Shown here: piece after piece, positions 23,300 to 58,400 of the stretch | Numbering within the stretch: position 1 is the stretch's first letter | How the letters are laid out: each line of letters opens with the position of its first letter | Source: a virus | Length of the DNA: 58,570 nt | IMG/VR virus record: IMGVR_UViG_3300021139_000016 | Coordinates: 1-58,570 of that record | Direction: 5' to 3' (one strand) | Position numbers and translations under genes: made by a program | The notes under the pieces: model-generated | The model's input: only the letters and a program-made list of their open reading frames with translations | Told to the model about the DNA's origin: nothing | The model's database searches: none

Positions 23300-23307
23300 T
23301 ATTTATT
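23300..23307 (-). promoter_or_regulatory. late-promoter-like octamer AATAAATA, 5 nt from start codon
   Basis: Minus strand; spacer CACAC then ATG 23294. It overlaps the stop codon region of gene 17 (ends 23306). Confidence 0.6.
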
Positions 23308-33344: not shown

Positions 33345-33379
33345 CCTATGCATCTCCCATGTAATGGTTTGTTCATCAG

Positions 33380-36822: not shown

Positions 36823-38253
36823 ATGGAGTATTTTTACGATGGTCAGATAAGACGCTACTTAACACAATTTATGCGTCTAATGAGTAACTTTAGTTACAGC
36901 GACAACAAAGGAAATCTAACAAGAGTACCTGTTCGCTACGGTGACATGAATAGACAAGTTGCTCAGATACTAAACAAAAATAGTGAAAACACTATGCCAA
37001 CTGCGCCTCTTATTGGTTGCTATATTAAAAATCTAGAAGTTGCACGTAACAGATTGCAAGAACCTACTCATATCAGTAAGGTACAAATCAAAGAGCGCGA
37101 TACATGGGTTAACCCGCAAACAGGAATAGAAGAATACATAAACATCGAAGGCGAAAATTACACAGTCGAAAGACTAATGCCTGTTCCATATGATCTAACA
37201 TTCCAAGCAGATATATGGACTACAAACACAGATCAAAAATTACAGTTGATTGAGCAGATGTTAGTATTATTCCGCCCTAGTTTAGAACTACAAACAACTG
37301 ACAACTATCTAGACTGGACCAGTTTAAGTGTTCTCGAATTAACTGAACTAACATTTAGTAGTCGTCAAATACCTCAAGGTACAGAGCAAGATATAGATAT
37401 CGCAACACTACAGTTCTTAACACCAATTTGGTTAACCACTCCTGCCAAAGTTAAGCAGATGGGAATTATTACAAATATTATTACATCTATATTTGTCGAA
37501 CCTGAAGGAACACTAGGTGCTGGTGAATATCATACCTACACAGAAACAGATTTCTTTGGTGGTAGATCACCAACAGCAGTCGATGGGACTACATTAGGTA
37601 ATCTAGGTGTGTTGATCCTAGATGGCACAGCTAAATTGTTAGCGCCTGCAGAAGGTGTATCTAATGATGAAGTTCCTTACAAGTATGGCCTAAACATCAG
37701 TTGGTTAAGAATCCTCGATCAATATCCTGGAAAATTCCAGGCAGGACTTAGCCAGATTAGATTAAAGAAACCATCCGGTACAGAAATTATAGCACGTATT
37801 AGTTTAGATCCTGCAGACGAATCAGTCATGCACCTAGACTTTGATGCTGATACTATACCAGCCGACAGTCAAGTTCCTCCGAACAGTGGCAAAACTTACA
37901 TCGATGCTATCATAGATCCAACAACATTTGATCCAGTTAATCCTGTAGCAGGTATACGCTATTTGATATTAGAAGATATCAATACAGATCCTAAATTAGC
38001 ACAGGCCATATTTGAAGACCAAGCGGCAAAAGCATGGCGCAATACAGATGGAACATATCTACAGGCTCATGCCAACGATATCATTACATGGAGCGGAACA
38101 ACATGGGCTGTTGTTTTCGATTCACAGTCAGTTACTGATCTCACTTACATAACTAACATTAGAACAGGCATACAATATGTATGGGACGGTTCTATGTGGT
38201 CTAAGAGTTTTGAAGGTGAATATAGATCTGGTAATTGGCGATTAATTTTATGA
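36823..38253 (+). CDS. 15: tail completion/sheath stabiliser protein, T4 gp15-like, enlarged
   Basis: 476 residues (T4 gp15 has 272). EYFYDGQIRRYLTQFMRLMSNFSY, VPVRYGDMNRQVAQIL, VERLMPVPYDLTFQADIWTTNTDQKLQLIEQMLVLFRPSLELQ (in blocks) match the gp15 core, including the F-F-Y...R-P start and the 'QI.EQ.L..F.P' helix. The C-terminal 200 residues are extra. It caps the tail and contacts the neck. It begins 1 nt after gene 14 and overlaps the Nudix gene by 4 nt (ATGA). Confidence 0.85.
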   Translation: MEYFYDGQIRRYLTQFMRLMSNFSYSDNKGNLTRVPVRYGDMNRQVAQILNKNSENTMPTAPLIGCYIKNLEVARNRLQEPTHISKVQIKERDTWVNPQTGIEEYINIEGENYTVERLMPVPYDLTFQADIWTTNTDQKLQLIEQMLVLFRPSLELQTTDNYLDWTSLSVLELTELTFSSRQIPQGTEQDIDIATLQFLTPIWLTTPAKVKQMGIITNIITSIFVEPEGTLGAGEYHTYTETDFFGGRSPTAVDGTTLGNLGVLILDGTAKLLAPAEGVSNDEVPYKYGLNISWLRILDQYPGKFQAGLSQIRLKKPSGTEIIARISLDPADESVMHLDFDADTIPADSQVPPNSGKTYIDAIIDPTTFDPVNPVAGIRYLILEDINTDPKLAQAIFEDQAAKAWRNTDGTYLQAHANDIITWSGTTWAVVFDSQSVTDLTYITNIRTGIQYVWDGSMWSKSFEGEYRSGNWRLIL

Positions 38254-38678
38254 ACAATGTAATTTGTAGTGGTGGAATATTTTTCTCAAAAGAGACTCAA
38301 AGGTTCTTGTTTTTGCTCCGTAATCAAGGAAAAACAGCAGGAACTTGGGGAATAGTAGGGGGTAAAAATGAGCCACTGGACACAGCACCCATTAACACTC
38401 TAAAAAGAGAAATCACAGAAGAAGTTGGATTCTTACCAGAGATATGCAAATATGTTCCATTAGAACTGTTTACCAGCAAAGATGAAGGCTTTTATTATCA
38501 CACATATTTGCTGGTAGTCAACGAAGAATTTATTCCTAAACTAAACGAAGAACACGTGGGCTATGCCTGGTGTAATTTAGAACACTGGCCAAAGCCATTA
38601 CACAACGGTGTTCGTGTTACCCTCAATAATAAAATCATCAAGGCTAAGATCGATACTATAATCGATATCTTAGCTTGA
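38250..38678 (+). CDS. Nudix hydrolase
   Basis: 142 residues from ATG 38250, which overlaps the gene 15 stop. The Nudix box is GGKNEPLDTAPINTLKREITEEVGF (read as GG at 37-38, then R53-E54-I-T-E57-E58-V-G60); REITEEVG is intact, while the upstream glutamate of the box is replaced. Such enzymes cleave nucleoside diphosphates linked to other groups (capped RNA ends, NAD, mutagenic dNTPs, nucleotide sugars). T4 has NudE in another place. Coupling with gp15 would make it a late protein. Substrate unknown. Confidence 0.82.
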   Translation: MNNVICSGGIFFSKETQRFLFLLRNQGKTAGTWGIVGGKNEPLDTAPINTLKREITEEVGFLPEICKYVPLELFTSKDEGFYYHTYLLVVNEEFIPKLNEEHVGYAWCNLEHWPKPLHNGVRVTLNNKIIKAKIDTIIDILA

Positions 38679-40364
38679 TTTTCTCACTACTAATAGATAG
38701 AATCCATTCCACCAAGCAGTTAGATCTTCTTGGTCATTCAAAATCACTTTAGAATAAACAACGTCTAAACCTGCGGCTTTGATTCCTGCATCGGTGCCGT
38801 CTACAACACCTTCCCAATTAGCATCATCGACTAAGATAAATGCTTCATCGGCGAGTACTTTAGAAAAATACTTGATAGCCTTAGCTGTAGTATTAGGATC
38901 GTGAGGACCATCATAGAAGAAAAAGTCTACAGGTTCAACTTCTTCTAGATTGACATCAAACATATCAGATTCATAAACGATAACTTTGTTGTCGCCCTTG
39001 AATCGTTTGACATTAGTAATAAAATCTTCTTTGTTGTTAGGCGGCATTTCAAAAATATCATTAGCAGGTTGATATGTATCTTTCCATGTATCAATACAAA
39101 TAACTTCTAATGAATTATCTTTTAGGGCGGCACAAGCAGTTGCACCTAACGCACTTCCTACTTCTAAGTAACGTGTAGAATTTTTCGCTAATTTATTGAT
39201 AAGACTTTCCATCTTCCAGCTTGTTAACCCAGGAACATCAATATTGATCATATCAATTGAGCTACCTAGCACTGCATCAATGGCTTGTTGTATTCTAGGA
39301 GTTAATGGTTCAGTCTTTTTCTTGTTAACAACTTTATCGCAGTATTGACATTCCCAGCAATCAAACTTGCAGTTCTTAATTTTTTCACGCCAAATGTTAA
39401 TAGGCTTTTCAGTAAGATTACCTTCTTCAATGTACTCTTCAAATCCGTCAAATAAGATTTCGTCACCTTCAATAAATCCTGCAACAATGTCTAGTGTTTC
39501 ATTGAATCTTTCAATACTTTCTCTGCCATGCATTTTAAACACATCAACATAGTCAAGCAATTCTACCCAATCTTCTCTCCAAGGAGGTAAGTTTGCAGTT
39601 TTTAATGGAACAGCAGGATCTTCGTGATCCCATTTAGGACAACTTACACGGCTAATGCTGTCATTAAAATATTGAGGACGTGACATATCTCTGCTGTTGT
39701 TAAATTGATAGTGTTCATCCATCATAGGGCATGCACCTAAACAACCTTCATTAGCCAACAAACTAATTGTTACATCTTTACCAAGATGTTCTTTGACCCA
39801 TTCTTTAGCAGTTTTCAATCTTTTGAGAGCATCTCTATCACGCATTAGATCTCGGTCAATACAAACATAATCAAATCCTGCTTTGGCATGCGCTACAAAT
39901 TCTGCAGGAGTGCGTACATTTCTTAAGATTGTGTTTTTAACATACAGTTCTGGGTAACGTGCTTGTATCTGTCCTGTACTCATCCAATGTATATGTGGTA
40001 AAATAACAGAACGGATTCCAGCATCATACAAGGGCTGAAAATGTTCTAACCATATATCGAGATTTTTTTGTGTAGGAGCTACATCGATGTTGTTGAATGT
40101 AGCGCAAAGATTGATGCCGGTCTCCCGGTGAAGGTTGAACGCGGCATCTATTACAGAGAAAGCATCTTGTTGAGAGACAAAAATATCTCCCATTGCATCT
40201 TGATTGAACGGAGGAATTCTTGATGTAAAATACACATCAAAAATAAAGTCCTTATAGTACTTACAAAACTCTAAAAAATTAAAGTATTGTTGTTCCGTTA
40301 ATTTTGGGTTGATCGGTAAGCTGAATATTTTTTGCGTCGTCGCAGATATCTGGGATTCTTTCAT
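38670..40364 (-). CDS. fusion of U32-peptidase-like Fe-S domain and class I methyltransferase
   Basis: 564 residues. Residues 1-350 resemble a TIM-barrel of the U32 family (YhbU/UbiV/RlhA type): SRIPPFNQDA, ATFNNI, the key block LLANEGCLGACPMMDEHY (203-219; C208, C212), SCPKWD (C242) and a second cluster CKFDCWECQYC (C332, C336, C339, C342). Residues 360-564 are a SAM methyltransferase of the Methyltransf_24 type: YLEVGSALGATACAA (399-413), VICIDTW, FFFYDGPHD, AFILVDDANWEG. U32 relatives hydroxylate rRNA, tRNA or ubiquinone precursors using iron-sulfur clusters. A joint hydroxylation-methylation is an inference. Overlaps the next gene upstream by 86 nt. Confidence 0.6.
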   Translation of the reverse strand: MKESQISATTQKIFSLPINPKLTEQQYFNFLEFCKYYKDFIFDVYFTSRIPPFNQDAMGDIFVSQQDAFSVIDAAFNLHRETGINLCATFNNIDVAPTQKNLDIWLEHFQPLYDAGIRSVILPHIHWMSTGQIQARYPELYVKNTILRNVRTPAEFVAHAKAGFDYVCIDRDLMRDRDALKRLKTAKEWVKEHLGKDVTISLLANEGCLGACPMMDEHYQFNNSRDMSRPQYFNDSISRVSCPKWDHEDPAVPLKTANLPPWREDWVELLDYVDVFKMHGRESIERFNETLDIVAGFIEGDEILFDGFEEYIEEGNLTEKPINIWREKIKNCKFDCWECQYCDKVVNKKKTEPLTPRIQQAIDAVLGSSIDMINIDVPGLTSWKMESLINKLAKNSTRYLEVGSALGATACAALKDNSLEVICIDTWKDTYQPANDIFEMPPNNKEDFITNVKRFKGDNKVIVYESDMFDVNLEEVEPVDFFFYDGPHDPNTTAKAIKYFSKVLADEAFILVDDANWEGVVDGTDAGIKAAGLDVVYSKVILNDQEDLTAWWNGFYLLVVRKSS

Positions 40365-41115
40365 CTCTACTCTCTAATAATTTATCGACAGCACCTTGTG
40401 CTCCTAGCGATATATTATGTATCCCTGCTTGGACTAGGCCTGCATACTTTGTGGCCATTTGTAAAGCTTCGATTTGATCTGTTTCAGGCATCATAGCGAT
40501 ACTATCCATGTTACCATGGCCAACACGACCATAGCTGATAATATCCATTGCGGCCTGCTTACCCATACGTGCGATCCAATACTTGCGTTCTTCTTCTGCA
40601 TTTTCTTCAGCAAACCATTCTAGGTCTTCTTCAGTTTTTGCATAGTATTTTACGATTTCTAAAAACGCATTGATTTCACGTTCTGCTTGTAGCATCTTAC
40701 GTTTCCAAATAGTAATATCGTAATCATTCTTATCGATATCTACTTGTAACATTTCTTTAGCGATCTCATCAACTGCTTCTGCTTGATCTCTCAACCATTT
40801 TTTACGAAGCAATTCTGCTTTTCGCAAGCTGGCTTTAATTTCTTGATGAGCGTGATAGCGTGTTTCAAGTTCCATATATGCTTGGCGAACTTGACGCCAT
40901 GGTGTCAGCTGACTTCTTGCTACGAAGTTTTGACATTGATATGCGGTCATACCCATATTAGAGTGGATCGCATAAGTCATGATTTCTTTATCGAAATCAT
41001 CCATACCGTAGCGTGTTAAGAAATCGTCATCAACTTTGATTTCGTTTACATCTGACGCTACGATATTTTCTAGGTCTTTTATATATTTGTTTGTTTTGTT
41101 AGAATTGGAATCCAT
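40279..41115 (-). CDS. helical protein of unknown function near fibre genes
   Basis: 278 residues, largely helical and charged, with a long coiled-coil-like centre (KASLRKAELLRKKWLRDQAEAVDEIAKEM is part of it) and YYAKTEEDLEWFAEENAEEERKYW (read as separate stretches). No family recognised. It overlaps the fibre-side gene by 17 nt and the U32 fusion gene by 86 nt, an unusually long overlap for this window. Could be a fibre or virion assembly chaperone. Confidence 0.5.
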   Translation of the reverse strand: MDSNSNKTNKYIKDLENIVASDVNEIKVDDDFLTRYGMDDFDKEIMTYAIHSNMGMTAYQCQNFVARSQLTPWRQVRQAYMELETRYHAHQEIKASLRKAELLRKKWLRDQAEAVDEIAKEMLQVDIDKNDYDITIWKRKMLQAEREINAFLEIVKYYAKTEEDLEWFAEENAEEERKYWIARMGKQAAMDIISYGRVGHGNMDSIAMMPETDQIEALQMATKYAGLVQAGIHNISLGAQGAVDKLLESRDERIPDICDDAKNIQLTDQPKINGTTIL

Positions 41116-42052
41116 ATGGCACCGGTGTTTTTCTTGTTAAACTATCGGGTCCTTCTGTCAATCCCATTGCTTGTGCTTGCAAACCTGGAATAGCTAACCC
41201 GAAGTACCTTTCGTACTGGATATTTATATCCCACACATTTTGGCATGCTTGGAAATCGGCTAAGATTTTCTGTTGCTGTACCAATAGATCTGCAACTTGT
41301 TTTTCAAACGCTTTGGCCTTTGCTACTATGCTGTTAGCCAATTCGGTTTTATCACGACCATGCGATGTTGCTAGGTAATCTAAGAAATCAGTATCGCCCG
41401 GTTGAGCTTGACCTGATAACCATAGCTTTGCTTCATCTTTCTGTATATCCCAAGTTTCCTGTTCTAGGCGTCCGCTTGGAGCCATAGATAAGAATCTACG
41501 TTCAAATTCATCTTCGATCACTTCTTTCGCAAACAAATACATAAAGTCACGTACTTCTTGTACGATATCATCTGTAAGTGCTACAGGAATCTTTACACCT
41601 GCTGGTAAATTTTGGCTAGGTGTAATACCGTCGACCGGATTGATTTTTGACATGATCGAATCGTCAGTATTAGATACCCAAACTTTGGCCGCCGCACGAT
41701 AGTCAGCAAAGAATTGCTTACCGTTAATCGCCATTGACTCAGTAATGAATGTGATTTTTTCTCTTGGCCATGTATAGCAAAGTGTATCGTAAAGATTCTT
41801 GCTCATTGCTACACATTGTACATTGAATAAACTGTACAATTCTTCGCAATACATCGCAGGATCTTGGTGACTGCTGTCAAATACTGATTGATCTAACACA
41901 TGATCACCAACAATCATAAAAAGTGTTGATGTATTGATAAATGGGTTGATATCGTAAGCAGGATCTCCGCCACCTAGAATAGGAGGAAGAGCTTCTACGT
42001 TCTTTACTACAGATACGTCCCAGTAGTCTACTGAATATGTTGATGTTGTCAT
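41099..42052 (-). CDS. tail-fibre-locus protein, unknown
   Basis: 317 residues. The N-terminal part contains FMIVGDHVLDQSVFDSSHQDPAMY; the C-terminal part is helical (FEKQVADLLVQQQKILADFQACQNVWDI, in two stretches) and ends LTRKTPVPYGFQF. AGGAG lies about 9 nt before ATG 42052. It follows the 373-residue adhesin-like gene by 3 nt. The helical end followed by an aromatic tail recalls small fibre-assembly proteins, but no family was recognised. Confidence 0.45.
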   Translation of the reverse strand: MTTSTYSVDYWDVSVVKNVEALPPILGGGDPAYDINPFINTSTLFMIVGDHVLDQSVFDSSHQDPAMYCEELYSLFNVQCVAMSKNLYDTLCYTWPREKITFITESMAINGKQFFADYRAAAKVWVSNTDDSIMSKINPVDGITPSQNLPAGVKIPVALTDDIVQEVRDFMYLFAKEVIEDEFERRFLSMAPSGRLEQETWDIQKDEAKLWLSGQAQPGDTDFLDYLATSHGRDKTELANSIVAKAKAFEKQVADLLVQQQKILADFQACQNVWDINIQYERYFGLAIPGLQAQAMGLTEGPDSLTRKTPVPYGFQF

Positions 42053-42055
42053 TGA

Positions 42056-43177
42056 TTAAACTCCTGGACGTCCTGAACTTGCTACTGTTGCGGCCGCGCT
42101 ACATGCGTGTCCTGAACTTGCGCCGTAGTGACCTTTGTTACGTGTAGCCGCTTGCATACGTGTTTGTGCGTTGTTATTATAAGTTGTCTTATCGCACTTG
42201 TTATTTTGTTGGCCGTCATAGTTACCAGTCATGTAACCCCAGTCTTGACCTGCCATCATAACGTCCTCACCATATGCTGAAATTTGTGAGAATGTTGTGA
42301 TACTGTTACCGTTAGTTTCGTTAAACACAACACGACCTTGTTGTACGTTGTTACCTGTACCAACATAGTGCCATCCGTATTTAGAACTTAAGAATTTCAT
42401 AAACCCGTCTGGTGTAAACTGTGTTGGGCTTCCAAACCAGCTGTCGTTGGAGTGTGTAATACCACTTGAACCGCCACCAATTGAGAACCAAGAAATTTCT
42501 TGGCCACCACAACCTGAAGTAGGACCACCTCCGCGGTTGTTACCGTTAGTTGTGTACATAACTTCTGTAGGCATGTGCATTTTTTCTGTAGAGCTTGGGC
42601 CGCCGCCTGTTGCGTATCCATATTGATATGTCATAGCACTTGCCGCACCGTGAGCACGACGAGCTACTGACATGTCCCATCCACCAACTGTTCCGTAACC
42701 CATAACTGACTGAGGATCGTCACCTGAGTAACCAAAAGAGTAAGGACTAAATGTACCACCTGTTTTACTGCGGTTAATACCTGTGTATAAGTTGTAGCTG
42801 TCGGTGTGTTGTGAAGCGCCACCAAATCCGTTGTTTGTTCCTAGCGAATAACCGTTGTAATCTGAGAAGAAACCATCCATGTAATCGCCCGTGTACATCA
42901 ACTGCTCACCGCAATAGTAGGTGATATCAGTTGAATGCCATGTCTTGTTCAAGGCACGCCATGCATTTGAACCCTTGTAACCTGCAGAACTAAATCCGTG
43001 TGTATAAATGCTACGATATCTGTAGCCTGATTGTGGGTTTCCTGATGGGCTACCTGGATATGTCCAGAACGCTACGGAACCGTCAGTAACTAATGTTGCG
43101 CCGCGGCAGTATGAGTCCGCGCTAGGTAGCGGATAAATGCCCGGAATAATGTTAGTGTTACCAATGTATAATGCCAT
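42056..43177 (-). CDS. adhesin-like virion structural protein
   Basis: 373 residues, extremely rich in G, Y, S, N and T with many isolated aromatic residues and repeated motifs such as GYxSxx, YGxxGGWDMSVARRAHGAAS and YGYATGGGP. This kelch/propeller-like pattern (Gly-Gly before strand, spaced Tyr and Trp) is seen in tail-tip structural proteins of marine T4-like phages. AGAGGAAA lies before ATG 43177 and AATAAATA 22 nt before it. Probably binds the host surface. No enzyme motif. Confidence 0.55.
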   Translation of the reverse strand: MALYIGNTNIIPGIYPLPSADSYCRGATLVTDGSVAFWTYPGSPSGNPQSGYRYRSIYTHGFSSAGYKGSNAWRALNKTWHSTDITYYCGEQLMYTGDYMDGFFSDYNGYSLGTNNGFGGASQHTDSYNLYTGINRSKTGGTFSPYSFGYSGDDPQSVMGYGTVGGWDMSVARRAHGAASAMTYQYGYATGGGPSSTEKMHMPTEVMYTTNGNNRGGGPTSGCGGQEISWFSIGGGSSGITHSNDSWFGSPTQFTPDGFMKFLSSKYGWHYVGTGNNVQQGRVVFNETNGNSITTFSQISAYGEDVMMAGQDWGYMTGNYDGQQNNKCDKTTYNNNAQTRMQAATRNKGHYGASSGHACSAAATVASSGRPGV

Positions 43178-43199: not shown

Positions 43200-43207
43200 T
43201 ATTTATT
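43200..43207 (-). promoter_or_regulatory. late-promoter-like octamer AATAAATA with leader
   Basis: Minus strand, 22 nt before ATG 43177; the leader contains AGAGGAAA. It overlaps the stop region of the fibre gene at 43203. Confidence 0.6.
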
Positions 43208-45719
43208 TGAGTAGCTTTGCTACCAATGCTTTTAGTTCCGCTACTTCTTGTTTTAGTGCGGCAATTTCGTCTGAATGTTCGTTGTGACCTGCAATTACTA
43301 ACGGTACTAATTTTTCGTACTGTACAGTTAGATAATTTTCACCTGTTTTGCTGTTTCCTTCTGCATCTACGTCAAAAGGAGCAGGGCCTGTAGCTTCTGG
43401 TTGTACTGCTTGCACTTGTGCCGCGTTCAAACCAACTTGTACTCTAGTAGATTTTTGTCCTAAACTGATAGCAAGTTCGTTGTTTACGTAGGTAAATGTA
43501 TCAAGTGTTCTTAGTTTAGCACTTGCGCCAGTTACAGGAGCAAGAACTGTTTTTAATCTAATATCAGAAGTATTAGTGTACAAGTCGCCTGTTACATATA
43601 ACACACCGTTGACCTGCATCGCGCCTGTACCGTTAGTCTGGAACAAGTTGTTACCTGAACGATACATGTAAATTTCGCCAGTTTGGTAACCGCGAATATA
43701 TGATCCAGCACCATAGTTATAAGATCCAAAGAATAGTGATCCACCAGTAGTAATGTTAATATCGCCAGACCCTGCTACAGTTAAGCAGACGCCAGCACCG
43801 TTAGCGGCTGAGTTATTGTTTACAGTTAATGCACCGCTTGTTTGACCTGTAATAGTATGTGTATATCCAGTTGCGCTAATTGCAAACTGTCCAGATCCAG
43901 CAATACCTGTAAAGTTACCTGAATAGGCAGTAACACCAGAACCAATTGGTCCCTGAAATGTTGAGCTGGCTATGTGGACTGCGGCAGATAATGTACCACT
44001 GCTAGGATTATAAGTTAAGTGAGATGAGTCAACATATTCGTTTGTTACTGCACCACTTACTGAGTTAGTAAACAAAGGATAGTAAGTCGCGTTTGTTGTA
44101 ATATTGGAAACAGTAACACCAGTTTGTGCCCAAGCAAGACCGGTACCAGTTGATGTTAGAGCGTATCCCGAAGTACCTGAAGAGCCACCAATATACAATG
44201 CACCACCTAAGGTAAGACCTGCTGATATACTTGCACCGCCTGTAATAGCTAATGTGCCAACACCTGTTGTACCGTTTGCCGCAGTACCTGCAGTCATCGA
44301 CCAGTTACCGGATCCATCGCTTTGTAAACGGATGTTACCTGCACCGTCTGAAATAAGGATACCGTTGTTTACCGCAGTACCACCACTGGCTCCGCCAAGT
44401 ATGACTACGTTCTGTGCAGATGCTGATAATGAAGATCCAGCACCATAGCCAACTAAAGTATTACTAAATCCGTTAGTTAATGGGTTACCTGCGTTATAAC
44501 CAATCAGCGTATTCTGATATCCGCCGACCATCTGGAAACCTGCTTGGTAACCAATAGCAGTATTACTGTAGAAACCGCCGTTACCTGTACCCAATGCGCG
44601 ATAGCCGATAGCTACGTTGTTGGTTAAGCCGCTATTGTTAGCGGTATACATAGCTTGATAACCGATAGCTACGTTGTTACCGCCGGTAGCAGTTTGTGAC
44701 AACAATGCCTGATAACCAATTGCTGTATTACCTGCTGAACTTGTTAGTGCGTTACCTGCATAGTAACCAATTAAAGCATTAGTACCACCAGTTAATAAGT
44801 TAGCACCTGCGGCAGTACCAATTACCAAGTTAGTTGAAATACTTGATTGTCCAGTACCGACACGTACACCGCTGATGAACGCATCGCCGGCCGTAACAAT
44901 GCTACCACCTGCAGATATGCCGCCTAGTGTAACAATAGCACCGGTTCCTGTAGAAGCAACACCGGATGCTAATGTAATCGCGGTGCTCTGTGGAACTGAA
45001 ATACCCGTAGCTGAAACAGTTAATCCGTTTAGCTGAGTTGCAATAGCACCAGATGATTGACTGGCGCTTGAAACTAAAAATTGTAAGTTACCTGAATTTA
45101 ATTGTACTTGGGCATTGTAGCCAGTTCCCATTACATAAGTAGTACCAGCATTATTATAGCTGTTGATGCCAATACCCATTGGGTACGTACTTGCACCAAC
45201 CTGAAGTGAAATTCCAGTTAAGTTAGTTGAGTTGTATAGGTAAGCCGCAACGTTAGTAGTTGTGTTAACGTTAAGACCGTATGTTGCTTGTGATCCGCCA
45301 ATTGCTAAGTTTGCGCTTAGTGCAAATGATCCGCCAATATTTAAGTTTCCAGATATACCCAATCCGCCCGCAACTACTAACGAACCAGTACCAGTTGTAG
45401 TACTTTGTGTAGGTGCTGTATAAGATCCAACGTAGGTTACACCTTGATAAGGTGCTATCTGAATTTGACCGCTTGCTTGTACTATTAAACTTGGAATACC
45501 GCTGGCATCGTTAACGGTATAAATGTTACCGGCCATACTATCAATAACACTTTGTAACTGTCCTGATAGACCTTCCCATGCTTGTGCCCCCGTGTCTAGA
45601 ACACGGATATAGGTCGTACCAGAACTTGTTGCACTACCGCCCTGGAAGGCTATGATAGGTTCCTGTGCGCTATTACCTATGTTTGGCGTTATTAAAATGT
45701 TACGATTGGTATATGCCAT
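43203..45719 (-). CDS. tail fibre with C-terminal self-cleaving chaperone (peptidase S74)
   Basis: 838 residues. The shaft contains TGSLVVAGGLGISGNLNIGG modules like those of the giant fibre at 46411, and YadA-head-type repeats NTAIGYQAL / NVAIGYQAM / NVAIGYRAL / NTLIGYNAG (coded near 44400-44790). The C-terminal 125 residues are an intramolecular chaperone: TSDIRLK with candidate catalytic S718, then VGLNAAQVQAVQPEA, YLTVQYEKLVPLVI and a final coiled coil IAALKQEVAELKALVAKLL. The chaperone folds the trimer and cuts itself off. Host-binding fibre. AATAAATA lies 21 nt before ATG 45719. Confidence 0.85.
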   Translation of the reverse strand: MAYTNRNILITPNIGNSAQEPIIAFQGGSATSSGTTYIRVLDTGAQAWEGLSGQLQSVIDSMAGNIYTVNDASGIPSLIVQASGQIQIAPYQGVTYVGSYTAPTQSTTTGTGSLVVAGGLGISGNLNIGGSFALSANLAIGGSQATYGLNVNTTTNVAAYLYNSTNLTGISLQVGASTYPMGIGINSYNNAGTTYVMGTGYNAQVQLNSGNLQFLVSSASQSSGAIATQLNGLTVSATGISVPQSTAITLASGVASTGTGAIVTLGGISAGGSIVTAGDAFISGVRVGTGQSSISTNLVIGTAAGANLLTGGTNALIGYYAGNALTSSAGNTAIGYQALLSQTATGGNNVAIGYQAMYTANNSGLTNNVAIGYRALGTGNGGFYSNTAIGYQAGFQMVGGYQNTLIGYNAGNPLTNGFSNTLVGYGAGSSLSASAQNVVILGGASGGTAVNNGILISDGAGNIRLQSDGSGNWSMTAGTAANGTTGVGTLAITGGASISAGLTLGGALYIGGSSGTSGYALTSTGTGLAWAQTGVTVSNITTNATYYPLFTNSVSGAVTNEYVDSSHLTYNPSSGTLSAAVHIASSTFQGPIGSGVTAYSGNFTGIAGSGQFAISATGYTHTITGQTSGALTVNNNSAANGAGVCLTVAGSGDINITTGGSLFFGSYNYGAGSYIRGYQTGEIYMYRSGNNLFQTNGTGAMQVNGVLYVTGDLYTNTSDIRLKTVLAPVTGASAKLRTLDTFTYVNNELAISLGQKSTRVQVGLNAAQVQAVQPEATGPAPFDVDAEGNSKTGENYLTVQYEKLVPLVIAGHNEHSDEIAALKQEVAELKALVAKLLK

Positions 45720-45754: not shown

Positions 45755-46411
45755 TTACAGTCCAAAATATGAGCGATATGCTTGAAAAACTGATCTTACT
45801 TCGCTGTCACTTAATACTCTGTTATAAAATAATGTTGGTCCTATCTGTCCGTTAGGAGGTCCACTATAAAATAACTGTATTGATGCGTTGTTTGATGCTG
45901 AACCTGCTTGCGTTGCTTGATTGTCTAAGACGCCGTTATAGTAAATCTTAGCGGTCGCTGTTCCGCCAGGTGTTCCAGTTCCGCTAAATGTTCCTGCCCA
46001 AGAATGCCATTGGTTCAATGGTACTGTTGTATTTGATTGTAGCGTAGTAACTGGGCTCAAATAAGTGCCCCATAACATGTTGTTACCGTTACCCATATAC
46101 ATATAAGCTGTGTTAGATCCAGAAGTATAACCAAATGTACCACCTGCCTTTGAAGTCAAGTTCATGAACTGTATAACACTATAACCAGAACTCAATGAAA
46201 GGTTGTAGTTATTGTTTGAAGTAATGGTATAGCTGGCATTAGGAGTGAAATAGTTTCCACTCCATGCGCTTGCACTACTTAATGTCAATGCACTATTATC
46301 AATTTGATTATACGCAGTAGTACCTGTTCCTGGATAACATTTTGTGTTACGAGGATCGGCCATGTAGACCAATCCCGATAACGGTACATACGGTCCAATA
46401 TTAATTGCCAT
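45755..46411 (-). CDS. LamG/concanavalin-like carbohydrate-binding virion protein
   Basis: 218 residues. After a short attachment-like start (MAINIGPYVPLSGLVYMADP) comes a jelly-roll with SVIQFMNL, NQWHSWAGTFSGTG, TAKIYYNGVL and the closing GPTLFYNRVLSDSEVRSVF, the classic LamG/Laminin_G_3 ending. The fold binds glycans. Its ATG overlaps the stop of the giant fibre gene by 1 nt, so it is translated with it and probably forms a fibre tip or partner. Confidence 0.7.
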   Translation of the reverse strand: MAINIGPYVPLSGLVYMADPRNTKCYPGTGTTAYNQIDNSALTLSSASAWSGNYFTPNASYTITSNNNYNLSLSSGYSVIQFMNLTSKAGGTFGYTSGSNTAYMYMGNGNNMLWGTYLSPVTTLQSNTTVPLNQWHSWAGTFSGTGTPGGTATAKIYYNGVLDNQATQAGSASNNASIQLFYSGPPNGQIGPTLFYNRVLSDSEVRSVFQAYRSYFGL

Positions 46412-49400
46412 TACAGATCTCCCTCTACGTCTAATTTGCCTACATCTTTACGTTCGGCCCATACTGTATAGAAACAGTTGATTTTCTTATTCATAATATT
46501 TTCATTACCAATGTAGACTTTATTGTTTTCAATACGATCTACATAAAGTTTCTGATGTGAACCAATCGGTGTTATATCTACAGTAATAGAACTTTCGTCA
46601 ACTAATGCAGTCCAGTAATCTGGAAGCTCAATAACTCCTGTATCACAACGTCCACGAACATAAACACCATTTTCTGGTCCTTCTAAACTACCATATTGTA
46701 ATTTCTGTCCAGGTTTAGTTGGATGGTCAATCAAGAAGCTCTTAGCAGTAGCATACAATGTACCACCAATATAAACGTTTCCGCCAACTCCAATACCACC
46801 ATTAGTAATTACTAACGCACCTGTTGTTGTGCTTGTTGAGTTTACACCAGATGCAATAGTTAAACTATTGTTTGTTGTACCACCAAATTGTGTCATCAAG
46901 TTTGCAAATGTAGTAACTGTGCTACCTGCAACTGTTGCGGTTGTTGCAACAAACAAACTACCACCTGTGTAGATGTTATTGCTTGTTGATGGAAGAGCAC
47001 TTCCTGAAGTTGGTGTATAGTAACCTGCGATATAACCTGGCTCGGCTTGAGCACCATATATATAGATACCAAATCCATTACCAGTATAGCTGGTTAAGCT
47101 GTCATTGATAACTGTACCAGCACCAATTGCTGTGTAGATACCAAATGTAGTAGCAGTAGCAGTACCCGGAGCATTAACTGTTAATGAACAACGATACCAG
47201 TTACCAGTTCCTACATAAGGAACTAATTCAATACGACCAGTTACTGGATATAATCCAGCGGCTGTACTTGCAACAACACCAGTTGATAAGTTATACCAAG
47301 CTGAGTGTGCCTGACCTGCTACAGTTACGTTGATTGCACCATATGTACGATCAGCGGCTTGTAAGAATACGCTAACTGTTACAGGACCAGTTTGACTAAT
47401 TGTTTGTTGGAAATAATGGTTACCTCCAGTGGTACTTTCAATAAGTTTAGTAGCATTTAATGTGCCGTCTGGACTGTATGTACTACCTGCCTGGAAGGTT
47501 GAATTTAATTTAACCCAGTTAGACTGTGAATAGTCACTTGAATAAACTAAAATATTACCACCCTGTGAATATATACCGTTAGCGATAGTTGCACCGCCGT
47601 GGATAGCATTATTCTGTGTTATTAAGTTAGCACCGCTGTTAATAAAGACACTTGAGTTACCAATTACAACAGGTCCGCCAACAAATAAATCTTTACCAAT
47701 ACCAGCACCGCCAACTGTTGTTAAGCCGCCGGTTAGTGTTGAAACAGAAACTGTAGCTGTGTAAACGTTAATGTATGGTGTGCTGGTTGAGCTACCACCG
47801 CCACCGCCACCACCACCGGTGCTTACAGCTGAACCGTTAACATAAATGTTACCTTGGACGTATAATGAACCGCCAATACCAACACCGCCTGCAACTGTCA
47901 ACGCACCTGTTGTAGTGCTTGTTGCTGAAGTAATGTTTGTGATGTTTGTAACACCAGGCATTGTCATTGTGCCTGCGGCATTGAACGATACTTTTAAGTT
48001 ACCTTGACCGTCTGATATCAATACGTTATTGCTTGAAGTAGCAATAGTAGCACCAGTGTTACCACCAATAATAACGTTATATGCACCGGATGTGATTGCG
48101 TTACCAGCTTGGTAACCAAGCATCACGTTCTGTGTACCAATCGCTTGTTGTAGGGCTTGGTAACCAATAGCAATGTTATTAGATAGTGTTGTTGAATTTC
48201 CGTAACCTGCTTGGTAACCAATTAATACGTTATTAGTACCAGCCGCAATGTAATAACCTGCGCTTTGACCAAATATGGTATTAGCAGTACCGTTAGTTAA
48301 TGAGTAACCTGCAGAGTTACCAACTACTGTATTTTGTGCGCCACTTACTGTGATACCTGCGTAAGCACCAATAATAACAGATTGTGCTGAACTTGTAGTT
48401 GCTGGATAACCTGCGTTACCGCCGTTCAAGAATATTGAGCCTTGGCCTGCACCGCCATCATCATTTACTGCAAGTTGTATTGTCTGCCAACGAACTTTGC
48501 CTACGTTAGTACCAAAGTTTAAGTTGCCGCCAGTCCAAACGTTTCCGCCTAGACCTAAACCACCGTTAGTAATAATAACTGCACCAGTTTGTGTGCTTGT
48601 AGCCTGTGTAGCATTGATGTGTGTTGTAACACCAGTAATGTTTACTGAGTTAGCCAACGTTGTGATGCCGCCAACATATAATTGTCGACTGATACCAACA
48701 CCACCTGTTGTGTATAATGCACCAGAGCTGGTTGATCCAGAATCTGTATTATTTTGTATAAAGATCTGACCTGTTACAGTACCACCATTGAACGCTCCTG
48801 AGAAGCTACCAATGTTTTGTGTTGTAACAATCTGATATCCATTAATCCAACTGTTATTGGTTAGATAGATACTTTGTGCGCCAATACCACCAGTGACTTG
48901 TAATGCGTTACCTGCAATAGTTGATGTACTTGCAATATTAGAACTGATATATGTTGTGCCAGTAATGTGTGCTGTCGATCCAACATACAAATCACCGCCA
49001 ATACCGACACCACCGTATGTTACAATACTACCGCTTTGTGTGCTAATTGATACTGTTGCTGTTGCAATAGTAAATGCACCATTGCCAAAGCGAGCCATTT
49101 CATAGTTAGATTGGTTAGCAAATATCAAGTTACTGCTGTAGCTCATTACAGCATCACCTTGAGCCGCAGTAGCAATAAAGTTACTTGGAGCACCTGCTAT
49201 ACCAATACGCCAGTCAGCTTGAGCACCTGTAGTTGTTCGTGTTACTTCTAGGTCAATATATGAACCTGCTGAGTTTGAACGTAGTTGATGGCTCTGTGCA
49301 CCTGTAGCATATATACCATAACCGGCACTTGCCGCGCCGCTGATATGTAATTTACCTTGTAAGTTGCTGGTTGCACCAACACCTAAGTTACCGCCTGCGG

Positions 49401-52400
49401 CACCACTGTCAATGATACCACGCAAGGTCATTGATGTACCGTTAGTTGTATAGAATCCTAGTGCGCCGTTTAATCCGCTTACAGCACCAATCGAAGCACC
49501 GCCACTGGCAAATGCTTGGTTGCTGTTCATGAAAGCTATACCAGCTGTACCAATTCCTAATAGGTCACGACCGATCTGCCAACGGTTATAAGCTTCTGTT
49601 GAAGCAACTTCATATATTGCTTGTGAGCCACCACCGTTTGTAATCTGTACACGAGAGTTAGCATAGTTACCAACAACCACGTTGCCGTTAACTTCGAGTG
49701 CTTGTCCTGGAAGTGTTGTATTAATACCAACGTTTCCGCCAAAGTAACCTTGGCTTGCAACTGTTAAGTTACCATTAATACCCGCTCCACCGAATACTTG
49801 CAAGCTACCAGATGCAGTATTGCCTAATGTACCTGCGCTATTGTATACTTGACCAATCGCGGCATATCCACCTGTGTATAGGTTACCACCAATACCAACA
49901 CCGCCATTTTGAACAATCAATGCACCTGTTGTTGTGCTTACGGCTTGTGTACCGTTGTTGATTGTTAAGGCCGCATTAATTGTACCACCAGAGAAGCTGT
50001 TAATATTAGCCGCTGTAATAATCGGACTTGTGCCAATGAAACCAGCTGTTGCGATATACAATGTATTAGCACCAATACCACCTGTTACAGTTACAGCATT
50101 ACCTGCGATTGTACCTGTATTAGATAGTGTGCTGGCTACGTTGATTGTACCGCCATGATATGTATCTTTTGTAACTGCTAGGCCACCGTAGGTTACGATA
50201 GAACCTGTGTTTAGTGCCGCTGTAGCATTTGTTGTTGTGTTAACAACGATTGCATTGTTTACGTATCCACCGTTGTATGCGTATCCACCAATGTTAGCTA
50301 CAGTAATAACTGCACTACCATTAACGTATGCATTGGTATCGATAGTTAAGTATTTTGCACCAATACCGCCAGGTGTGTAAATTGCGTTACCTGTTGCACT
50401 GGTTAAGTTGTATAGTGTACTTTGTACTGTTGCTGTATTTCCGACAGTTAAACTCTTACCGATACCAACGCCACCGATTACTTGCAAACTACCCGATTGT
50501 GTTGTGTTAGAATCAACTGTACCAGAAATTCTGCCAGTTACAGAAAAAAGTGTGTTCCATGGTAATGTTGCGCTACCCAAATACATACCACCTGCTGTAG
50601 AAGGATTAATACCAACATTCGATACCCAGCTACTAATACCATCAAACAATAACGTAGCATAAGGAGAAAGTGTATTGCCAACAGCAATACCTGAATTAAT
50701 TGCAAGAGCCGGGTTAGTTGAATTAGTGCTTAGGTATAGAACCTTGTCACCAGTTTGGATGTTTGTTGAGTTAACATAAGTTTGTGTGCCATCAACATAC
50801 AAATCGCCTGTTAGGTACATGCTACCTAATACGTTGGCATTACCACCAACCCATAAGTTGCCGCCCATACCCAAGCCACCATTGGTAATAACGATAGCAC
50901 CAGTTGTTGTGCTTACTGATTGAGTAGGATTGTTAATAGTCAACGCATTGTTGATTGTACCACCAGAGAAGCTGTTGATGTTAGCACTGGTAACAATCTG
51001 TGCGTTACCAATATAACCATTACCGCTTAGGTATAAGTTAACTGCACCGATACCACCATTCGGTACTTGTATCGCATTGCCTGCGATAGTGCTTGTGCTT
51101 AGTAGACTTGAACCAACATATAAACTTTGTGTGATTGCCGCACCACCAGTTACCTGTAGGGCACCTGTTCCTGCACCAGTTTGATCTGTACCTGTGCTTA
51201 GTGTTAATGTTCCCCCAATAGTTAATGGGCTTCCTGGAACGTTAATATTAGTTGCTGTAATATTTGTAGCAACTAGATTACCGTAGAAGTTAGCACCTGC
51301 ATAGATATTACCGACTGCTGATATACCACCAGCTGTACGGATAGCACCGCTTGAATTATTAACTGCTTGTGTTGTTGTGTTTACATACAATGGTGCAGTA
51401 ATTGTACCACCATTGAATGAGTATGAGCCAATGTTAGCCGCTGTAATAACTTTACTGTTACCAACCCATGCCGCACCTGTTACGTTTAAGCTACCAAACC
51501 AACCGCCACCACTTACTTGCAGAGCGTTTGTACCGATAGTACTTGTGCTTGCGCCTGCGGCTGTTGTAATGATCTGACCTTTAGCGGCAAAGTTTCCGGC
51601 TGAAGTAAATCTTGCCCATTCAACTGTTGTATTTGCGTTGGTGTTGTTGTCCCATGCACCGCCTGCAAATACCAATGCACTTGGGCTACCTGCAGACTGT
51701 GTACCAGAAGCAATCCAATGTTCGAATGTTGTACCATCACCGTTAGGATTGAATGCGGCAAATGCTAATTTGCTGATATCCGAGCTACCAATACCTAATG
51801 CGTTTTCTAAAGTATTGTTCAAGCTCATCAAGTTGGTCATTGTATTGGCAGTTTGTATCCAATTCCATGTACCTGCAGAACTTGCATTTAGGTGTATACC
51901 GTATTGTGGATTAGTGTTACCTACTCCAAATACAGCACCTTGCGCTCCACCGACAGCATTGTATACTGTGTAGCGAGCTATTTCATTCTTGTTTTGAACT
52001 ATAGCAAAAGGTAAGTTGGTATTATTTGAACCAATGTTTATTGCATTGAGTGTTGAGTTGATACCAAAATAGCCATCATATGATGCAGAGAACGGATCAA
52101 CAAACGCAAAATATCCGCCCGACCAAATGTTTCCGCCAGCGCCTATACCGCCATTCAATACTTGTAGAGCACCAGTTGTGGTTGATGTTGCCTGTGTTGC
52201 GTAATTAATAACCAATGGGTTATTAATTGTACCACCAGAGAAGCTATTGATGTTAGCCGCTGTAATTACTGGACTACCTGCGATCCATGCTTGATTCTTG
52301 ATGTTCAAGTAACCTGCATAAACACCACCAACTACTTGTAAAGCATTACCTGCCTGTGTTGATGTGTTGAATATTGCAGAACTTACTGTACCAGTTGTAA

Positions 52401-55400
52401 TTGTTGCTGTACCAGCAGTAATTGTCTTGAATGTTGATGAGTTAGCAGTAACATTCAATGCTCCGCCAATCCATACATTACCACCGATACCAGCACCGCC
52501 ATTAGTTACTTGGAATGCTCCAGTGATTGTTGAAGTAGCTTGTGTTGCACTATTAATAATAATAGGTTTGCTAATCGTACCACCGTTGAATGAGAAGTTA
52601 CCAATAGTTGCTGTTGTAATTACAACACCACCGTTGACTGTTGCGATCTGGTTGACCATCAACATGTCTGAGTAGATACCGCCAGATACTACTAACGCAT
52701 TTTGTGTATTAGTTACTGTAGATTCTAGTAAGCTGGTGATGTACTGTTGGCCGCCGACAATTAATGTGCTACCAACACCTAATCCACCTGCGACTGTAAC
52801 AGCCGCGCTTTGAGTGCTTGTTGCATCAGTTGTATTTGTAAATGTTGTTACATATCCATTATTGGCTGTAAGAATTGGACTACCTGCCAACCATGCATCT
52901 GGACCGTTGATGTTTAATTGTCCACCAATGTATGCACCACCGACTGTGTATAATGAATTAGATAAGTTTGTAAGCGTACTGCTTAATGGAGAACCTAAGT
53001 ATGCATTTGCACTTGCGGCAATACCACCAGTAATCTGTAAGCTACCAGTTAGTGTACTTGTTGCAGAAGTATTTCCAACAATTTTAATTGTGTTGAAATA
53101 ACCATAACTCCATGCAGATGTAAATGTTCCTAGTCCAATACCTACTTGACTTGGATTGATACCTGCGCTAGATTGCCAGCTTCCAACACCATCAAATGTT
53201 AAACTTGAGAATACAGAACCTGTATGTCCTACTACTAGACCAGAACCGCTTGCTGAAAGAGCGTTTGAAGATCCTGTGCTTAGGTATATTAGTTTATCAC
53301 CAGTTTGAATACTGGTTGAGTTAACGATTGTATTAATACCATCAACAAATAAATCTCCGCCAACGTGCAATGCTCCGCCAATGAAAACTGATTTGCCAAT
53401 ACCAACACCGCCGGCTACAGTTAATGCACCAGTTGCAGTAGATATAGAATCTGTTGTGTTAGATAAGTTTAATGTGTTACCAATTGAACCACCAGAGTAT
53501 TGATTCAATGTTGCAGTTGTAACAATCAACGCACCATTTAGATAACCGTTATTAGCACCATATATGTTTCCGCCAACCCATAGATCTTGTTGAACGCTGG
53601 CTCCGCCTGCTACAGTCAATGCACCTGTTGTAGTACTTGTTGCATTTGTTGTAGACGTAATTGCTACAGAACTATTGAACTGTGCCGAAGGAGAGTAAAC
53701 TACAAACGGACCATAAGAAACTAAACCGTTGTTAAATGTTGTTTGTGCATTATTAAATGTTGCGGCACCATTAATTACAGCAGGACCATTTACATTTAAT
53801 TGTGTAAACGGATTAATATTAATTGCACCAGCAGTTGTGCTGATAGATAGTGTGTTAGCAACGTTTACATAATTTGTAACAGTATTGTTAAGATTTATAA
53901 CACCAGATGTTAGATTTAAATTGCCGCCAACGGTAGCGGTGTTTGTAACAGCTATTGAATCATTAACATTGATTGTAGAATTAACCCATAGATTACCTAA
54001 TACGCCAACGCCACCGCTTACTTGCAATGCACCTGTTGTTGGTGATGTTGCTAATGTTGTACTTTGTATTGTGGCTGTATTTGTTACATATAAATTCTTG
54101 CCAAAATGTCCGGACCCGCCTACCCATAGATCAAGCAGTATGCCAGCACCACCACTTACCTGTAGAGCACCTGTTGTAACACTTGTCGAACTGCTTGTGT
54201 TCACAACTTGTAATGGATTATGGATCGGTGTTAAGCCGTCATATGTTCCTGCGTATGTACTAATGTTACCAGAAGTAACAATTGGATAACCATTGATCCA
54301 ACCATCTGTAGTTAGATATAAATGTGCGGCTCCAATACCACCAGTAACTTGTAATGCGTTACCTGAAATTGTGCTTGTGCTGTAAGCAGAGCTTGTTGTT
54401 AGAACTGAGCTTGCGTTTACAGTTTTGATATATGCACTATTCCATTGAAGTGCTACACTACCAATTCCGTATGTGCTGTCAGTAAATGGATTCAATCCAC
54501 CTTTGCTGATCCAGTTACCTGCCGCGGCTGATCCGCCGTCAAACAATAAACTTGCCCAACGATCGTTTTCAATTCCGTCATCTTTACCTACAACAATACC
54601 AGAACCTGCTGACTGTAGAGCATTTCCTGTTTGTGTACTTAAGAATATAATCTTGTTACCAATATCAACGCTTGTGCTATTGATTGATGTAACTGTTCCT
54701 GCAACATTCAAGCTACCTTGAATAAGCATGTTGCCACCGATTAAGGCGCCACCACCTACTTGAAGAGCGTATGTTGCTGTACTTGTAATTTGTAAAGGAC
54801 TTGTAACAGCTGATCCGCCAACAAAACTACCAATCGTACTTGAAGTAACAATCTGCGCTCCGTTGATCCAACCATCTGTACTTAGATATAAGTGTGCCGC
54901 ACCAATACCACCACTTACCATTAATGCATTACCAGCAATAGTACCGGTGTTATAAGCAACATCAGTCATTGTTATTGCCTGAGAAGTTGAAGAACCTCTA
55001 GACAATACTGTATCTAATGTGCTAATATCACTAACTGTTATTGAACCTGTGTTACCTGTTAGAGAAATATCAGATCCAGCTGTTAATCTTTGAACACCTA
55101 AGTTAACAATATTAATTGTAGCTGTTGTACCAGATTTGGTTACGCTTGCACCAATGTAGGCATCCGTAGTTGCAGTAACGTTTGTTAATACACTACCGCC
55201 GCCTAATAGATTTAGGTTGCCACCAACTGTTAAATTACCACCAACTCCAACTCCGCCATCAACAATCAATGCACCTGTTGTAGTGCTTGTAGATTGTGCT
55301 AGGGCAGTAATATGGATTGGGTTTGGAACGATACCACCAAGACTTGCTCCAATACTTGCAGTGGTAACAATCTGATAGCCACCAATCCACCCGCTGTTAG

Positions 55401-58400
55401 TTAGATATAATGTTTGAGCGCCAATGCCGCCGTTAGGAGCAACAAAAGCGTTGTTTAAAATTGAGCTTGTAGAAATCGCAGAGCTATAAGATGTAACAGT
55501 ATTGCCTGCATACACAGCTCCGGCAATACCTGCACCGCCTGCAACGGTAAACGCACCAGTTGCTGTTGATGTACTTGCTTGTGTACTTGGTACAGCAAAC
55601 GAACCTGTGATACTTAACGAACCGTTAACCTGCGCATTGCTGTTGATAATGGTACTGCTACCGCTGTCAGGGCTGATTGTGATATTACCGGTCAAGCTGG
55701 CAATAGTTCCACCCGACAATGCAAGATCGCCAACTGCAACGCTTGTTGGCAATATAACTGCATTGTTAGTGCCATCAGTAATAATTAATTCGTTAATACT
55801 GCTCAGGTTAACGTTAGCAGAACCAAAGCTAACTGCACCTGTTTGTTCGTTGACTAAGAAACTGTTACCAACACGGAAGTTACCACCTTGGTCGACTGTT
55901 TGGTAGTAAACAATACCACCGTTAGTTTGTGTTACTTCATTTGTTTGTACAACTAAAGTAGAATCATTAGTAATGTCGCCGCCTGCACCAATGAATGCCA
56001 TGTTGAAGGCAATTAGTTTTAAGTCTGTACCTGTACCATTAGCAACAACACCCTTGTTACCATATACAGCGGCTGAACCAATACAACGGAGTTCTGCACC
56101 AAACTGATGATAGTCTGCTAGAGTAATTCTTGTAGCAGTCTGTGGACTTGTTCCTGTTGAGAAAACATTTTGTGTTGCTGTGCCGTCATCGATAAATGAT
56201 GTCGAATTATTTCCGCTATCAAAATGCAACATTAATACTGTTGCAACATCGCTTGTTTGTGCGGCTGACGGAACTGTATAACTGCTTACGTATCTATCTA
56301 CGTTACTGATACGTAGATCGTCCATGTAACCGTTGAACCAGTTGATACCAGTTGCATCTGCACCGATGTTTAATGGATCTGTAGAGTTTACGTTTGCTAC
56401 TGCACCTAATGCATATCCATCAATCGTTCCGTTAACAAAAACTGCAACGCGATTTAGGCTGGCATCACGTGTCATTGCAACATGATACCAAGTGCCAGTT
56501 GATAGAGATGTAGTACCTACGGCATTAGCGATGCCCCAGTAACCAGATAAATGTCCAGTTGAGTTAACTTGCAACATGACCTGGCTTCCAGAGCTAGATC
56601 CTTTGTTGAAAATTGTGTTAGTAACTCCGTTACCATTTAACCAAATCCATGATTCAAATGTAAAGCTACCTACGCCAAATTGATAATCAACATCGCTTAA
56701 TACTTGTAAGTATCCTGATGTTCCATCAAAGTAAGCGGCACTGGTTCCAAATTTCTTCTGGGTAGTGCTTTGTTTAGCAGTAGCAATAGGTGTTACAGTT
56801 TTTGGTGTACGATCATTAACTGTAGCAAAGCCCCAAACTGGCCCTGTCATATAGACATAACCATTTGATGCAGTTGTGATTGTGCCTTGCGCTAGAGTGT
56901 TGCCAGCAGGATCTTTGTAATTTAATACATCACCGGACGCAAATGCACCGCTTGCTCCAGATAATTTAATTCTTGTTTGTCCAGATCCGCTTAGACCAGT
57001 TGCGCCAGCTTGGGCGTTAATTGCAGTATTGGCAAAATATACGAAACCGTTCAATAGTTCTGCGCGAACACCGTTGGTCATGTAGATACCAGTAGCGTTC
57101 GGAGTAACAAATGTTACTTCATTGAACAACATAGCAGGTTCTAAACTGCCTGCGGCTAAGACACCTGCGTCTAAGTAAACACCGCTACCAGCATTAGCCG
57201 ATGCGTAACCAAATGGATCAGTTGCTGTTTGAACTGTACCTTTAGTAATAAAACTTACACGCTCAACATAAGGGCTCTTACTTGTGATCTTAGCGCCGGA
57301 TGCAAATGCAATACCGTAACCAGGTTGGTAGTAATTGGCTAAAGTTAAATCAGTGATTAATGTTTCACCATTTAACAAGAAACCATTTAATGTATTTGTT
57401 GCTGTTGTCGGTTGGATTACAGTTGAACGTAATCCGCCACCTTGGATAATAACACCAGCCGGAACAGTTAAAGGCCATGTTTCAGTATAGATACCTTGGG
57501 CTAGATAAATTGTTGTACCTGTGGTAGCAACGCTCAGAGCTTTTGCGACTGTAGCAAATGGACTTATTGGTCTTAGACCGTCATTAGAATCATTACCGCT
57601 GGTTGCGCTAACATAACGAACATTGTTTGCATGATTTAACAAATCAACGCCGTTGGCCCAAACAGTGCCTGTACCTGTACCTGTAGTCAAATACAGATTG
57701 TTTACTAAAGCTGATACTGTGTTTACATAAATGGTACTGCTAAAATAAGCATTGCCATATGAATTTAGAGATGTACCAGTATTGAATAAAGTAACTGGAC
57801 CACCAACGTTTAAGTTGCTCGAGAATCCAACACCGCCTGCTACTCTTAATGCGCCACTGTTACTTGAAGTAGATGTTGCGGTTGATGCGATGTACAATGA
57901 ATTGTTAATTGTACCGCCAGAGAATGCATTGATTGTTGCCGATGTAACAATTTGTGCGTTATTAATATAACCAGCTTGTGCAATGTACAATGTTGTAGCA
58001 GTAATACCGCCTGCAACATTTAATGCGTATGGTCCGTTACCTGGAATGATACTTACATTAGTACCGCTAACAATCATCTGTGTAGATGTATTGTTGATAT
58101 AAACTGTATTAGTTGTAGTATTGCCGCGATCAGTTACTGTCTGTAGTGTAGACAAGTTAGAAAGAATAACGTCACCGGTATAATACTTAGTACCATTCCA
58201 TGATACTCCTAAGTCGCCTGTTGTGCTTACAGTTAACACACCTAAGTTAGTTACTGTTGCAACACCAACTTGCATTCCGTTTGACGCAGTAGTAGCAGTA
58301 ATACCAATACCAGGACTTCCAAGTAAACCAATAATACCTGTATTGGTTAGATTAACTGTTACAAAAGAACCAGTTACTACTGTTGATTGTACAGCAATAC

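Follow-up and report, generated by a model that had tools for sequence, protein, structure and literature searches.

A cyanophage-type fusion of a distant U32-like domain with a SAM methyltransferase: a candidate enzyme of the tail-gene region

The window analysed here, a 58,570-nt stretch of DNA from an aquatic phage, carries on its minus strand an open reading frame (38670..40364; ATG start, 564 aa) whose product raises the question of which chemistry it performs and on which substrate. A first-pass annotation had read it as a U32-like Fe-S domain fused to a SAM methyltransferase, one polypeptide that could hydroxylate and then O-methylate the same RNA base or quinone. Hydroxylation factors of the U32 type are an emerging class, so far known for RNA and ubiquinone: the best-studied relatives, TrhP and RlhA, act on RNA (PMC6599085), and UbiU/V act on ubiquinone (PMC6747719).

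The fusion gene and its distribution

The fusion protein belongs to the T4-GC 354 / phrog_1458 family, and it matches phrog_1458, to which PHROGs assigns no function, over nearly its full length (E 6.7e-163). Conservation across the homologues rules out that the frame is a chance ORF or an artefact. At its 5' end the gene shares 86 nt with the gene upstream of it (40279-41115), and identity within the family is low only at residues 1-13 (0.34), being normal at residues 14-28 (0.59). The U32-like TIM-barrel domain takes up approximately residues 1-350 (39315..40364, minus strand, as for all parts of the gene), and the class I SAM methyltransferase domain residues 376-564 (38673..39239), within which lies the sole Pfam match of the protein, Methyltransf_24 (PF13578; residues 400-514, E 4.7e-12).

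The motifs picked out in the first-pass annotation (NEGCLGACP, C242, CxxxCxxCxxC at 332-342, EVGSALGATA, IDTW and DDANW) are all present on the minus strand. The NEGCLGACP block (residues 205-213; 39726..39752), with C208 and C212, directly follows the barrel strand at 199-204, with H218 further on; C242 sits in an SCP triplet (residues 241-243; 39636..39644) within RVSCPKW; and the CX3CX2CX2C cluster CKFDCWECQYC (C332/C336/C339/C342; residues 332-342; 39339..39371) lies past the barrel. These elements are invariant, and all seven cysteines, spaced C208-x3-C212-x29-C242-x89-C332-x3-C336-x2-C339-x2-C342, are kept across 46 homologues with identities of 41-82%; the remaining cysteine positions are not conserved.

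Homologues of the fusion were found by tblastn in 123 cyanophage records, in 121 of which they cover at least 80% of the query, with about 41-46% identity among the matches listed. The records that were opened annotate the protein as hypothetical, in several cases as T4-GC 354. The IMG/VR matches amount to 290 loci for the full fusion protein and at least 554 contigs for the N-terminal domain. Among the loci retrieved, some of them overlapping, the methyltransferase is carried by 163 of 192 N-domain ORFs. The architecture that the first-pass annotation had proposed to seek in other phages is thus widespread in cyanomyoviruses, and the fusion is a common but unannotated phage protein rather than a one-off. 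No homologue was found in the plasmids searched, and the literature searched contained no characterised phage U32 fusion, U32 enzyme of a RiPP cluster or Dehalogenimonas pair. The present analysis provides a starting annotation for a "hypothetical" protein of more than 120 sequenced cyanophage records.

The N-terminal domain and its relation to U32

Because the N-terminal domain alone has no significant match in Pfam or NCBIfam, its assignment to U32 required profile, intermediate-sequence and fold evidence. The PF01136 model matches neither the fusion protein nor its closest bacterial homologues, and a direct sequence search of the PDB with the fusion protein and with the N-domain profile gave no useful match. 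Profile-profile comparison of the domain with U32 (hhalign, broad alignments) gives a score of 64.7 and a probability of 95% over 192 columns. The corresponding controls score 21 for MTHFR, 17.7 for reversed U32, at most 22.6 among 40 column shuffles, and 33.8 over 11 columns only for radical SAM; comparison with only six close U32 sequences scores 17.6. The N-domain profile also retrieves chromosomal proteins of Chloroflexota (L262 at E 2e-16), three of which (L261-L263) score above the PF01136 threshold; for L262 there is also a sequence match (E 1.2e-7) to 5d88, a U32 protein of solved structure. Two weak matches, G206 and G510, were set aside as unrelated proteins.

Structure prediction, a check suggested in the first-pass annotation, yields the TIM-barrel fold of U32: the AlphaFold2 model is an eight-strand alpha/beta barrel (pLDDT 81, pTM 0.81), with low local confidence at the cysteines, and Foldseek places 5d88 third among PDB matches, with a target-normalised TMt of 0.59 that is the highest among the 50 matches listed. 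The fold alone is not decisive, since other TIM barrels also match the model. An alignment of the phage, Campylobacterota and Chloroflexota proteins retains all seven cysteines, including in the PF01136-positive proteins, together with a histidine after CP (EHY/FH/YH) and an FK..GR motif, the latter with minor exceptions. Because profile, intermediates, fold and shared cysteines and motifs agree, the view that the domain is a distant relative of U32 at the superfamily level, forming a seven-cysteine branch of it, holds, and the first-pass assignment is borne out at that level. The domain should be termed U32-like rather than a UbiU/TrhP-type member.

A plain radical SAM domain, the outcome that the first-pass annotation had set against its own reading, is rejected: the profile match is confined to the 11 columns noted above, the CX3CX2C segment (332-339) lies past the barrel and not after strand 1, and the Pfam search finds no radical SAM PF04055 match in the fusion protein. 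A subtler alternative is that the domain carries out Fe-S chemistry other than hydroxylation, such as a radical or redox modification of another kind, and that the methyltransferase modifies the same substrate independently of it. The canonical U32 motif has four cysteines, CX6CX15CX3/4C, with CXnCX12CX3C in UbiV and CX6CX16CX38C in UbiU (PMC6747719), whereas the phage domain has seven and the canonical spacing is absent from it. TrhP in addition has an essential glutamate, E162, eight residues ahead of its first cysteine (PMC6599085), for which no counterpart is evident: the position corresponds by ungapped count to I200, where there is no conserved glutamate, although E206 nearby is conserved. 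These differences count against hydroxylation of the U32 type and in favour of a different chemistry, as does the local resemblance of the CX3CX2C segment to a radical-SAM signature. The rest of the barrel nevertheless matches U32 and not radical SAM, and partners of the O-methyltransferase type fit the prior formation of a hydroxyl, and a departure from hydroxylation is rated as unlikely.

The barrel would most likely hold at least one [4Fe-4S] cluster, whose ligands may be C208, C212, C242 and one of the C332-C342 group, or in which H218 may contribute to an open site. A second cluster or zinc could be bound by the other cysteines, and the conceivable arrangements are one four-cysteine cluster with cysteines to spare, a pair of sites, or a single site with open iron. 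Hydroxylation would proceed without direct use of O2, as is thought for UbiU/UbiV, RlhA and TrhP.

The methyltransferase and its coupling to the U32-like domain

The C-terminal domain is, by its predicted fold and motifs, a class I SAM methyltransferase, as the first-pass annotation had stated. In addition to the Pfam match, G403, G407 and D425 are invariant, as are D485, D513, D514 and N516 in the 46 homologues, with H488 present in 40 of the 46, and Foldseek with the full-length model returns methyltransferases, including RNA methyltransferases and TrmR among the best matches, although the class I fold is generic. The spacing of D485, H488 and D514 equals that of Asp275, His278 and Asp304 (Asp...His(+3)...Asp(+29)) in the Mg-dependent O-methyltransferases of MycE type, residues that are typical of natural-product sugar O-methyltransferases (PMC9275233). 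This spacing suggests a metal-dependent O-methyltransferase activity, by which the domain would cap the hydroxyl newly formed by the U32-like domain, hydroxylation presumably coming first.

The two activities are linked by more than the fusion itself. In two phage groups (L158, L165, L167, L169 and L172 in one, L170 and L173 in the other) the N-terminal domain and the methyltransferase are separate, overlapping neighbour genes. In Dehalococcoidia, 3 of 6 full-length seven-cysteine U32-like genes directly follow an O-methyltransferase of a different family, Methyltransf_2/Dimerisation, in chromosomal pairs (L268 3239-5514; L269 3409-5676; L271 4452-6723) that adjoin TAT-signal reductive-dehalogenase-like genes; the pairing may be one event, since the three genomes are closely related. 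The Campylobacterota homologues are without the methyltransferase. The fusion, the split genes and the Dehalococcoidia pairing support a coupling of hydroxylation with O-methylation, and the seven-cysteine phage branch joined to an O-methyltransferase would offer a compact, testable hydroxylate-then-methylate enzyme.

Gene context, candidate substrates and known systems

Upstream of the fusion in the window runs a series of genes, those listed with coordinates being likewise on the minus strand: the T4-GC 353 / phrog_1409 gene (40279..41115, 278 aa), which overlaps the fusion, and a phrog_1604 gene of the same cluster (41099..42052, 317 aa), neither with an assigned function; a Gly/Tyr/Ser-rich protein, phrog_1417 (42056..43177, 373 aa); a tail-fibre protein with a C-terminal Peptidase_S74 chaperone domain (43203..45719, 838 aa); a Laminin_G protein; and, heading this run of tail genes, a giant ORF of 4033 aa with a TTG start (46411..58512). 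The phrog_1417 protein, the S74 tail-fibre protein and the giant ORF are candidate substrates. This order recurs: of 167 viral loci, 124 have phrog_1417 upstream of the fusion, and a GC353 homologue is upstream on the same strand in 144 of the 145 loci with enough upstream DNA, overlapping the fusion or lying within 800 nt of it in 147 of 155 cases. GC353 and GC354 also occur in equal numbers of cyanophage records (77+38+8), as totals by organism name rather than record by record. The T4 late-promoter motif TATAAATA is no more frequent than expected by chance.

Other genes of the window may be recorded here. A NUDIX hydrolase gene (38235-38678) is convergent with the fusion gene, with a 9-nt overlap, and 38 viral loci have such a gene downstream of the fusion, on the other strand. 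The terminase and the tail-sheath stabiliser (23306-24898 and 36823-38253) are closest to those of jumbo phages of the PA5oct/Atu_ph07 type, yet the module of tail-fibre genes surrounding the fusion is cyanophage-like, which makes this a mosaic phage. The tail sheath protein (29976-33353, phrog_10581) is unusually long at 1125 aa.

The bacterial homologues of the N-terminal domain stand in more varied surroundings. In two Campylobacterota MAGs (L092 147-5921; L093 311-6070) the U32-like gene heads a type I secretion operon (OEP, C39-type ABC transporter, HlyD), preceded in L093 by the end of a repeat-like ORF. In L106 (1722-5679), genes for a 300 aa protein, the U32-like protein, DUF6445 and a SPASM radical SAM protein occur together in what looks like a peptide-maturation cluster, and in L107 the U32-like gene is near tryptophan halogenase, M50/HlyD and SecA-like genes. 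One U32-like gene is an orphan beside genes judged by eye to be CRISPR-like (L105), and L108 (662-3954) holds two tandem, divergent U32-like proteins of 540-555 aa with an extra N-terminal half. Known U32 hydroxylations require prephenate, which gives some interest to a DAHP synthase gene that adjoins a seven-cysteine U32-like gene in L267 (2737-5200).

The gene nearly always follows tail genes, and some bacterial homologues have genes for secretion or peptide maturation as neighbours, which favours a polypeptide of the tail (or a secreted one) as the target. Taken together, the phage and standalone bacterial surroundings make a polypeptide likelier than RNA or quinone, though only by association. 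The preferred reading, to which a probability of roughly 0.4 may be attached, is that the fusion is a two-domain enzyme which would hydroxylate, by Fe-S chemistry of the U32-like kind, and then O-methylate a polypeptide encoded by the neighbouring tail-fibre genes, or a group attached to that polypeptide. The argument for a tail target is one of gene order only, which in phages can reflect late expression. It is also weakened by S-RIM14 (L087), where the fusion gene is surrounded by metabolic genes, those for plastocyanin and 6PGDH among them, some 6 kb away from GC353, and by the variety of the bacterial partners, from the orphan in L105 to the reductive-dehalogenase genes of Dehalococcoidia. 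Furthermore, 2OG-Fe(II) oxygenases are common in cyanophage tail regions and could perform the hydroxylation instead.

The same context bears on the remaining alternatives. The position beside GC353 and the tail fibres would also be expected of a non-catalytic tail-assembly factor or minor virion component derived from an old enzyme, but this is very improbable, because the SAM-site, metal-site and cysteine residues are invariant across divergent phages, a sign that catalysis is retained. An RNA-modifying enzyme, in which the U32 domain would hydroxylate a base of tRNA or rRNA, to be turned by the methyltransferase into a methoxy base, would accord with the substrates of TrhP and RlhA, with the methylation of ho5U to mo5U in B. 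subtilis, and with the RNA methyltransferases among the Foldseek matches. It is improbable, given that no RNA-binding domain was found in the protein, none of the genes nearby was recognised as a translation gene, an ARAGORN scan of the window finds no tRNA, and the gene is tied to tail genes. A small-molecule or glycan enzyme, acting on a quinone, another metabolite or a sugar, for example one later added to the tail fibre, draws on the MycE-type residues, the ubiquinone substrate of UbiU/V and the small-molecule type of the Dehalococcoidia Methyltransf_2 partner. It too is distinctly unlikely: the annotated flanks contain no recognised gene for a glycosyltransferase or for quinone metabolism, and a protein target better fits the standalone homologues in secretion operons. 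With no RNA-modification or quinone gene recognised near the fusion, and tail-fibre genes nearly always adjoining it, the first-pass proposal of a tRNA, rRNA or quinone substrate finds no support, while its linkage of the two activities is supported.

A bolder form of the preferred reading is that in many cyanophages and related phages an O2-independent hydroxylase and an O-methyltransferase, joined in a single polypeptide, place methoxy groups on residues of the phage's own tail-fibre proteins, and that in bacteria secreted proteins are the target of the enzyme in its unfused form, which would make this the first protein-modifying branch of U32. Such a proposal is doubtful at present, but if true it would give U32 chemistry a part in how marine viruses of very high abundance recognise their hosts.

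Among known systems, the pathway of TrhP and a tRNA methyltransferase (ho5U to mo5U/cmo5U) shares with the preferred reading the logic of U32 hydroxylation followed by methylation, but its proteins are separate and its substrate is RNA, to which no link was found for the phage fusion. The metal-dependent O-methyltransferases of MycE/TylF type have the same class I fold and equal D...H...D spacing, whereas the Pfam family of the fusion is Methyltransf_24, no sugar substrate is known for it, and H488 is lost in 6 of the 46 homologues. The T4-GC 354 / phrog_1458 proteins of cyanomyoviruses, known only as hypothetical proteins, have a homologous full-length architecture at 42-46% identity and the same neighbours, and do not differ substantially from the fusion. 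With the PF01136 superfamily (UbiU/UbiV, RlhA, TrhP) the N-terminal domain shares the TIM barrel, cysteines after barrel strand 7 and FK..GR near the barrel end; it differs in falling below PF01136 detection, in having CX3C - C - CX3CX2CX2C in place of CX6CX15CX3/4C, and in belonging to a phage protein that is fused to a methyltransferase in a tail-gene context. The seven-cysteine U32-like proteins of Chloroflexota (L256-L266) and Campylobacterota (L092, L093, L105-L108) are standalone, chromosomal and uncharacterised, with varied partner enzymes, but they share the cysteines, the histidine and the barrel motifs of the fusion, and some adjoin an O-methyltransferase gene in an arrangement that echoes it.
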